From: a virus
Strand: one strand, 5' to 3'
Virus record (IMG/VR): IMGVR_UViG_3300032326_000166
Span: 1 to 41,101 of that record
Length of the DNA stretch: 41,101 bases
Part shown: one piece after another, positions 22,278 through 41,101 of the stretch
Numbering within the stretch: the first letter of the stretch is position 1
How the letters are laid out: the number at the start of each line of letters is the position of its first letter
Translations under genes and position numbers: made by a program
The notes under the pieces: generated by a model
Databases searched by the model: none
The model's input: only the letters and a program-made list of their open reading frames with translations
What the model was told of the DNA's origin: nothing

Positions 22278-23282
22278 TTATTTGATCTGTGTCCAGACAC
22301 GTTCACGGATCTGTTTTGTTAAACTGTCTGGTAATGCCACATAGTCTAAGTCTGCGGCATCTTTCTTACCATTCTTAAATGCCCAGTCAAAGAACTTTAG
22401 TACTTCATCGCTAGTGGCTTTGTTAGCAGGATTCTTATACATGATGATAAAACTTGCCGAACTTACTGGCCAAGCATTAGGGTTCTTTTGATCTACAATA
22501 CTTAATCCCATACCTGGTACACTGAACCAATCAGCACCATCTGCGGCTGCGGCAAATGTTACGTCATCTGGACTGACCCATCGTCCTGCTTTGTTTTGTA
22601 GTTGTAGAAATGTCATGTTGTTCTTTTTAACATAAGCATACTCTACATAACCAATCGAACCCTTGATTCTGTTCACATTGGCTGCAACACCTTCGTTGCC
22701 CTTGCCACCTACTGAACTAGCTGCCGGCCATTTAACTGCTGCGCCACGACCCACACGCTGTAGCCACTCAGGGCTTACGGTAGCAAGATAGTCTGTCCAG
22801 TTGAATGTTGTTCCACTACCATCAGCACGATGTACTACTGTGATTGCTTCATTAGGTAAATTCTTACCTGGATTCAATGCTGTTAATTTAGGATCATTCC
22901 ACTTGGAAATATTGCCCATAAACACTTCGGCCATAACTGGTCCTGTAATGCGTAGTTCACCTGGCTTAAAACCATCTAAGTTGACTACAGGCACTGTTCC
23001 ACCGATGATAGCAGGGAATTGAACCTGTCCCATCTTGTCTAAGTTCTCTCCGCTTACTGGTGCGTCTGTGGCACCAAAGTCCACTGTCTTGGCATTGATT
23101 TGACGGATACCACCTGATGATCCAATACTTTGATAGTTCATGCCTGTGCCTGTGGCTTTTTTGTAGGCTTCAGCCCACTTGGCATAGATTGGGAATGGGA
23201 AGGTAGCACCTGCCCCTGTGATGTCTGCGGCTTGTGCTGAAATTGACACAGCAGCCAATAAAATTGTTAGTAGTTTTTTCAC
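22278..23282 (-). CDS. pstS: Periplasmic phosphate-binding protein
   Basis: 334 residues from a GTG start with strong SD AAGGAG. Signal peptide MKKLLTILLAAVSISAQA ends at A-D. Typical PstS segments follow: GAGATFPFPIYAKWAEAY, SIGSSGGIRQI (phosphate loop), DFGATDAPVS, RADGSGTT and GKGNEGV. All phosphate-contact motifs look intact and length equals cellular PstS, so it should feed the host Pst transporter under phosphate starvation, as known for marine cyanophages. The close match to proteobacterial PstS suggests a Gram-negative host. It stands alone with its own Pho-box promoter and terminator. Confidence 0.97.
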   Translation of the reverse strand: MKKLLTILLAAVSISAQAADITGAGATFPFPIYAKWAEAYKKATGTGMNYQSIGSSGGIRQINAKTVDFGATDAPVSGENLDKMGQVQFPAIIGGTVPVVNLDGFKPGELRITGPVMAEVFMGNISKWNDPKLTALNPGKNLPNEAITVVHRADGSGTTFNWTDYLATVSPEWLQRVGRGAAVKWPAASSVGGKGNEGVAANVNRIKGSIGYVEYAYVKKNNMTFLQLQNKAGRWVSPDDVTFAAAADGADWFSVPGMGLSIVDQKNPNAWPVSSASFIIMYKNPANKATSDEVLKFFDWAFKNGKKDAADLDYVALPDSLTKQIRERVWTQIK

Positions 23283-40040: not shown

Positions 40041-40820
40041 AGTAATAGTATTTACAAATAGACCCCGCTGCGAGCAAGTTCAAACGTACACAGTAGTAAT
40101 CTATATAGTAGCAATTCATATAGTGTAGAGAACTCACGTAGTAGTGATCCGTATAGTGTGAAGATACACGGAGTACACGCTTGAACACACTGAGGCTGCG
40201 AAGCAGCCAGCGTGAAAAAGCGTTTTTGAGCACCCTAGCACACAGTCAAGCACAATATACACTATATAGAAAAGACCCCGCTGTGAGGTTTTGACTAAAA
40301 CTACACTATACGCACAGAGACCCCGCTGCGCGGTCTAGGGTAGACACACTATATACGGGAAGAGACCCCGCTGCGAGCAAGTAGCGTAGTGGCACTGTGA
40401 GAGTATTTGAACTATGCCTCTCTGTCCCACCCTTGACCAAAATCTTCAACGCTATGCCACGGTATCCTGATTCTTGATTCTGACGCATATTCTAGAATCA
40501 CTCACACAATTTCACACTTTATCACACTTTTCAACACTTTTTAGTCTGATCGACCGCACTCGTTGACTCTATACGCAAGGTGACCTTATTCTAGATACAC
40601 TATAATTCACTATAGACAACTATAATTCACCATAATTCACTCTAGAGCACGGTGTCCGCTGTGTTCAACTGCCTTATACAGTAGTCAACCGCCGCACACA
40701 GTGAATCACTATATAGACTATTCACACTGTGGTCACTATATAGATCTTTCACACTATATAGAATACTCACGCACACTGTGATATATACACTATACACTTT
40801 CAACTCATGGAACACACTAT
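40041..40820. other. Gene-poor, repeat-rich region (candidate replication origin or regulatory region)
   Basis: About 780 bp without a convincing gene. It holds four copies of GACCCCGCTG[CT]G, many copies of CACTATATAG and CACTATA-type words in both directions, an inverted repeat (GGCTGC-GAA-GCAGCC at 40193-40207) and AAAAAGCGTTTTT just after it. Short reading frames here are Tyr-rich or otherwise unlike proteins. It leads into the DnaA-box cluster after one small ORF. Confidence 0.6.
40061..40382 (+). repeat. GACCCCGCTGCG direct repeats
   Basis: Copies at 40061-40079 and 40364-40382 are identical over 19 nt (GACCCCGCTGCGAGCAAGT). Shorter copies lie at 40274-40287 (with CTGTGAG) and 40319-40330; the latter is part of an AGACC...GGTCT inverted repeat. 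Most are preceded by A[AG]A. Confidence 0.85.
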
Positions 40821-40823
40821 ATG
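40260..40823 (+). repeat. CACTATATAG repeat set
   Basis: Exact copies at 40260-40269, 40707-40716, 40734-40743 and 40752-40761; near copies at 40347-40356 (ending AC) and 40815-40823 (ending ATG, the start of the last ORF). The three clustered copies start 27 and 18 nt apart. Related CACTATA words occur around 40600-40640 and inverted TATAGTG words around 40100-40165. Confidence 0.8.
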
Positions 40824-41033
40824 AAATTCGAAAGCCTTGCTCACTTGACTTACAGCACTCATCAGGTATTCTTATCAAGGGAACTAGAGAGGGGCCATAT
40901 ACACTGTTTCAAGTACGATCAACGCCAATGTGATTATCAAGTATTTGAGCCGAGGGAATGGGACGCGGGCAGTCATTATGTTCTCGAGGCGCTTCCCAAA
41001 TGGCAGTGGGGATTCGTAGAGGATTCAGAGTAA
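40821..41033 (+). CDS. Small hypothetical protein between repeats and DnaA boxes
   Basis: 70 residues: MKFESLAHLTYSTHQVFLSR, HIHCFKYDQRQCDYQVFEPR, then YVLEALPKWQWGFVEDSE. Ordered amino-acid composition supports it over the other frames here, but there is no good SD and the ATG is inside a CACTATATG repeat. It ends 4 nt before the first DnaA box. No family recognised. Confidence 0.6.
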   Translation: MKFESLAHLTYSTHQVFLSRELERGHIHCFKYDQRQCDYQVFEPREWDAGSHYVLEALPKWQWGFVEDSE

Positions 41034-41037
41034 TCTA

Positions 41038-41101
41038 TGTGGATAACTGTGTGGATAATAGTTGTCCACAGGTTATTCAAGAGTTATTCACATGTGGACA
41101 A
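41038..41101. other. Cluster of five DnaA-box-like 9-mers (candidate origin)
   Basis: TGTGGATAA at 41038 and 41050 (each the complement of TTATCCACA), TTGTCCACA at 41062, TTATTCACA at 41084, TGTGGACAA at 41093. Three match TTAT[CT]CACA exactly and two differ at one base. The outer 41062 and 41093 copies are inverted. The cluster continues to the window edge and may extend beyond it. Confidence 0.72.

Follow-up and report, generated by a model that had tools for sequence, protein, structure and literature searches.

In bacterial oriC, the left and right DnaA boxes are oppositely oriented. DnaA boxes are also part of some phage replicons, as in oriR of P1, where boxes for the host DnaA occur together with the phage initiator RepA and its iterons. 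The origins of phage T4 have no DnaA boxes and are built from phage middle promoters and R-loops. Among the other multi-box sites of Escherichia coli, datA combines two consensus boxes with four that have one misfit and includes an IHF site needed for ATP hydrolysis, and the three boxes of DARS span about 70 bp (PMC5835720). DnaA boxes have been predicted by Ori-Finder in Pseudomonas phage PseuGes_254 (PMC11512268), and a survey of huge phages took the replication mode from GC skew, leaving DnaA unmentioned (PMC7162821). In the open-access literature that we searched, no paper treating DnaA boxes and jumbo phages together was found.

The locus considered here lies at the right end of a 41,101-nt viral contig (IMG/VR record IMGVR_UViG_3300032326_000166), the whole of which is referred to below as the window, and it recurs in related contigs. 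Like an E. coli-type oriC, it gathers 9-mer DnaA boxes within about 150 bp, sets left and right boxes against each other, and is present in a single copy per genome. Unlike oriC, it has more strict boxes, 11-bp steps, and a predicted early phage promoter as its neighbor; no AT-rich unwinding element was found beside it, and no dnaA gene in the phage contigs. It resembles datA and DARS in being an intergenic multi-box site, but with 7 to 8 strict boxes. With P1 oriR it shares the presence of DnaA boxes in a phage replicon, but no initiator gene or iterons were recognized beside it: the genes next to the array gave no Pfam match besides a GIY-YIG nuclease, and no iterons were seen in the array-bearing loci that were read. 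The likeness to T4 origins lies in the T4-like phage and in a promoter, here of the sigma70 type and combined with a DnaA array, that is directed through the proposed start. Nine cultured jumbo phages (Phosso, Atu_ph07, 121Q, Vibrio 2.275.O, SCTP-2, GAP32, XbC2, XaC1, and RaK2) belong to the same T4-like lineage by their DNA polymerase (41 to 47% identity), yet none has a box cluster; each has 13 to 33 scattered boxes, and a search for the array locus in cultured phages by DNA similarity returned only a 28-bp match at chance level.

The window contains six strict boxes (TTRTYCACA), five of which fall within 64 bp at positions 41038 to 41101. The first-pass annotation had described these as three TTAT[CT]CACA and two TTGTCCACA sites, and all five were located. 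Boxes 1 (41038–41046) and 2 (41050–41058), both exact matches reading TTATCCACA, are on the minus strand; the position of the first is shared with the related contigs L002, L003, and L004, and the second reads TTATCCACA in L002 and TTGTCCACA in L003 and L004. Box 3 (TTGTCCACA, 41062–41070) and box 4 (TTATTCACA, 41084–41092) are on the plus strand, and both have TTATCCACA as their counterpart in L003 and L004. Between them, at an 11-bp step, is a degenerate copy on the same strand (TTATTCAAG, 41073–41081), the L044 counterpart of which is the one-mismatch copy TTATTCAAA. Box 5 (TTGTCCACA, 41093–41101, minus strand) directly abuts box 4, giving the inverted pair that had been claimed, and ends with the contig. 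The intervals, earlier given as 12 to 31 nt, are in fact 12, 12, 22, and 9 nt from start to start, or 12, 12, 11, 11, and 9 when the degenerate sixth copy in the 22-nt gap is included. Such a cluster is far above chance expectation; none of 300 first-order Markov sequences of the length of the window exceeded 2 boxes per 64 bp. Immediately to the left, an ORF of 70 amino acids (40821–41033, plus strand) stops 4 bp before the array; it is 90 to 94% identical in three relatives and has no match in Pfam or PHROG. Left of this ORF, about 760 bp (40060–40820) contain few plausible genes and many CACTATATAG-like and GACCCCGCTG repeats. Because the window is the complete IMG/VR record, the array is cut by the contig end. 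Contig ends within 0 to 2 kb of the array are common (the window, G012, G014, G015, and several short loci) and resemble assembly breaks.

A search with the 70-aa ORF recovered L002, L003, and L004, of which L003 is part of a 383-kb contig. In each of the three, the array runs on beyond the point corresponding to the window edge, with 7 to 8 strict boxes in about 130 to 140 bp. L002 matches the window almost perfectly, with 100% identity for the radical-SAM protein; past the edge it has about 86 bp more of the array, with three strict boxes and one degenerate box, followed by a promoter element that reads leftward. The full array has eight strict boxes and two one-mismatch copies in L002 and L044, and seven strict boxes in L003 and L042. 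The GIY-YIG gene to the right of the array led to 30 loci, of which ten different ones have 4 to 8 strict or near-strict boxes 200 to 1150 bp upstream, so that this position of the array is shared by at least ten different GIY-YIG loci. Likewise, of 23 viral contigs with the promoter leader pattern, 20 have 3 to 8 boxes within 200 bp, in 14 distinct layouts. Absence of the boxes from close relatives had been named as the observation that would overturn the first-pass proposal; they are kept in L002, L003, L004, and further contigs. On the 383-kb contig, 7 of the 20 strict boxes lie at 86760–86889 (130 bp) and there is no second cluster, and a single cluster is likewise seen in eight further contigs. 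In most layouts, the two half-arrays are oppositely oriented, with an order that differs from relative to relative (++++---- in L081, --++-++ in L086). On viral contigs that appear unrelated to the array clade (L139, L144, and L200, with genes for portal protein, terminase, or primase/helicase) and on L149, L156, and L109, there are 8 to 11 DnaA-like boxes per 200 bp; with up to 11 boxes on unrelated viral contigs, DnaA arrays in phages extend beyond this clade.

The bases of the boxes themselves are maintained by selection across the relatives. When boxes were set on one array and scored in its sister, 37 of 497 box columns differed (7.4%) against 156 of 535 spacer columns (29%), so that box bases are about four times slower to change, an effect size that is approximate since the pairs are non-independent and the aligner favors matching boxes. 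The nearly identical pair of the window and L044 has 0 changes in 45 box bases and 3 in 19 spacer bases. Changes within boxes fall mostly at positions 3 and 5, the known variable positions of DnaA boxes.

To the right of the array is the sequence CGCCGTCCACCCCCACTATGTTCGAACATG...ATTATA...GTCAA, which on the other strand is TTGACA-N17-TATAAT, matched at 11 to 12 of 12 positions in 17 distinct sequences and reading leftward into the array. A TGTTCGAACA palindrome follows TATAAT, near the expected start site. By its sequence, the element is a conserved, predicted promoter of the sigma70 type that would fire into the array. The nearest box lies 32, 33, 43, 53, 54, or 65 bp from the promoter leader, i.e., at 32 + 11k (±1) bp in 14 of 14 layouts; the simulated p-value for this 11-bp phasing is only indicative because the layouts share ancestry. 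A leader peptide (MFEHSGGGRR) encoded by the leftward element was considered and rejected, its length ranging from 13 to 57 aa and its ATG being gone in L076. A further observation concerns L003:6471-8789, where a series of perfect or near-perfect TTGACA-N17/18-TATAAT elements precedes small rightward genes; this is probably an early region for the host RNA polymerase. In L057, L061, L063, L066, and L080, a conserved imperfect palindrome (GTTAGTTAGCGCCAACTAAC) occupies the interval from the array position to the leader element.

The promoter element is conserved more widely than the array, and several relatives have the former and no boxes. At the place of the array, L063 (3120-3440) has four ACCGGTnnnnACCGGT units with a 10-bp step beside the same kind of leader element, and L075, L082, and L088 have TTTGTCAACCAGGTT-like repeats. 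These other repeats at the same place suggest a replaceable binding-site module beside a fixed promoter. The tree of the GIY-YIG proteins needs three gains or losses of the array, two of them forced by well-supported branches. The fuller proposition, that a clade of T4-like jumbo phages initiates via host DnaA at a promoter-coupled, oriC-like array which sisters have swapped for other modules such as ACCGGTnnnnACCGGT, is doubtful, though possible.

Genes of the 383-kb relative specify a gp43-family polymerase, with 47% identity to that of Sinorhizobium phage Phosso and 45% to that of Atu_ph07, as well as a tail sheath, a DnaB-like helicase, an SbcC-like protein, a ligase, and a ribonucleotide reductase. 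This gene set bears out the T4-like affinity assumed at first pass, and from it the window is taken as a fragment of a T4-like jumbo phage. The array probably sits in the early-gene regulatory region of a family of such phages, all uncultured. The same relative has a full-length 631-aa protein (L013:7855-9750, minus strand) with 64 to 67% identity to annotated chaperone DnaK. In the window, a PstS-like phosphate-binding protein (22278–23282, minus strand) shares up to 81 to 82% identity with sequences from Limnohabitans and other members of the Comamonadaceae, which points to a freshwater member of the Burkholderiales as the host, a single gene indicating a donor and being no proof of a host. 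In Limnohabitans, the region upstream of minC (L303:2140-2365) has a three-box DnaA cluster in the same -,-,+ order as the phage array, a TAGTAGG repeat, and an AT-rich stretch, making it a candidate for the chromosomal origin; dnaA is on another contig than this cluster.

That the locus is a conserved, predicted DnaA-binding array is well supported. DnaA domains III and IV were not detected in the phage contigs searched; this speaks against a phage-encoded DnaA as the ligand and leaves the host DnaA as the likely one. The recurrence of the array at one place in many relatives, under selection, makes it very probable that these phages recruit or capture the host protein. We infer, with a probability of roughly 0.45, that the first rounds of phage replication depend on the array as an origin or a site of helicase loading that requires host DnaA, with DnaA binding, duplex opening, and initiation taking place there. 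Early after infection, host DnaA would bind the phased, mostly opposed half-arrays to form an oriC-like complex; transcription from the adjoining leftward sigma70-type promoter into the array might then, with the DnaA complex, open the duplex for loading of a replicative helicase, either the host DnaB or the DnaB-like helicase of the phage. The array would serve as the start site of the first rounds only, with the gp43-type replisome of the phage taking over afterwards. The origin reading is favored by the opposed half-arrays, their single copy between divergent gene sets, the coupling to a promoter, and the position of the skew minimum, and also by the conservation of the array at its locus, the constraint on box bases, and the 11-bp phasing in all layouts, as well as by the failure to find a phage DnaA in an element that encodes its own polymerase and DnaB-like helicase.

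The skew itself has to be read with care. The detrended cumulative GC skew of the 383-kb contig has its minimum at 86,589, about 170 bp from the array at 86,760–86,889, and the skew rises across the array in 7 of 8 other contigs, the remaining one extending just 177 bp to the right. However, genes switch direction at the minimum, the array lying between leftward and rightward genes. In the GC-skew check proposed at first pass, the skew does change near the array, but it was discarded as independent proof of an origin since it tracks gene direction. The AT-rich unwinding element that had been anticipated to the right of the boxes was absent when looked for in the 383-kb relative, where no stretch up to 200 bp from the array is AT-rich or unusually unstable (61% AT, compared with 59% genome-wide). 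These two points, the relatives with the promoter element and no boxes, and the nine cultured jumbo phages with no cluster weaken the case for an origin. Of the earlier proposal that the phage recruits or titrates host DnaA at an origin, the host-DnaA part is supported by the conserved array and the failure to detect a phage DnaA, and an origin is the more probable of the two proposed roles, although at less than even odds.

Titration is the strongest of the alternatives, though an unlikely one. Here the array would be a sink for host DnaA, acting by titration or by datA-like inactivation; host initiation would stop while the phage relies on its own replisome, the effect growing with phage copy number. 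Several high-affinity boxes, as expected of a datA-like site, are predicted from the consensus matches of the array, which is denser than E. coli datA (PMC5835720). The failure to find an unwinding element agrees with such a sink, and an occurrence in some lineages only would fit an accessory host-takeover trait. However, one array per genome with 7 to 10 sites would have little effect before the phage has multiplied, and a sink does not need a fixed promoter phase, which is nevertheless kept in every layout. Alternatively, bound DnaA would time expression according to the DnaA level, either from the leftward promoter, through a road-block or attenuation within the first 200 nt, or from the rightward early promoters. 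In keeping with this, the array is downstream of, and phased with, a strictly conserved promoter; the wider conservation of the promoter and the other repeat arrays that occupy the site in some relatives likewise agree with a switch of this kind. We nonetheless consider it improbable: no gene was recognized in the first kilobase of the leftward transcript, and, to our knowledge, known DnaA-controlled promoters use fewer than the 7 to 10 boxes seen here.

Action at the RNA level has very little to commend it. The boxes occur in both orientations and are predicted to be transcribed, such that the leftward transcript could fold into hairpins of inverted copies, with the resemblance to DnaA boxes being secondary; on one strand, wobble pairs would indeed survive the A-to-G and C-to-T changes seen at positions 3 and 5. 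But the number and orientation order of the units vary freely (as in L081 and L086), which argues against a conserved pairing scheme, the unit fits the DnaA consensus at all nine positions, and Rfam gave no match. Finally, a host oriC joined to a phage contig by misassembly, which the location of the array exactly at the contig end might have suggested, is ruled out for practical purposes by intact relatives, because the same junction is found inside independent contigs, including the 383-kb one, with phage-like genes on either side, and the promoter leader pattern has zero exact matches in genome_contigs.

More generally, a conserved and constrained array of this kind identifies a site and a host factor, along with a mechanism that can be tested. 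If host DnaA acts there as proposed, it would link a T4-like phage to the control of initiation in its host.
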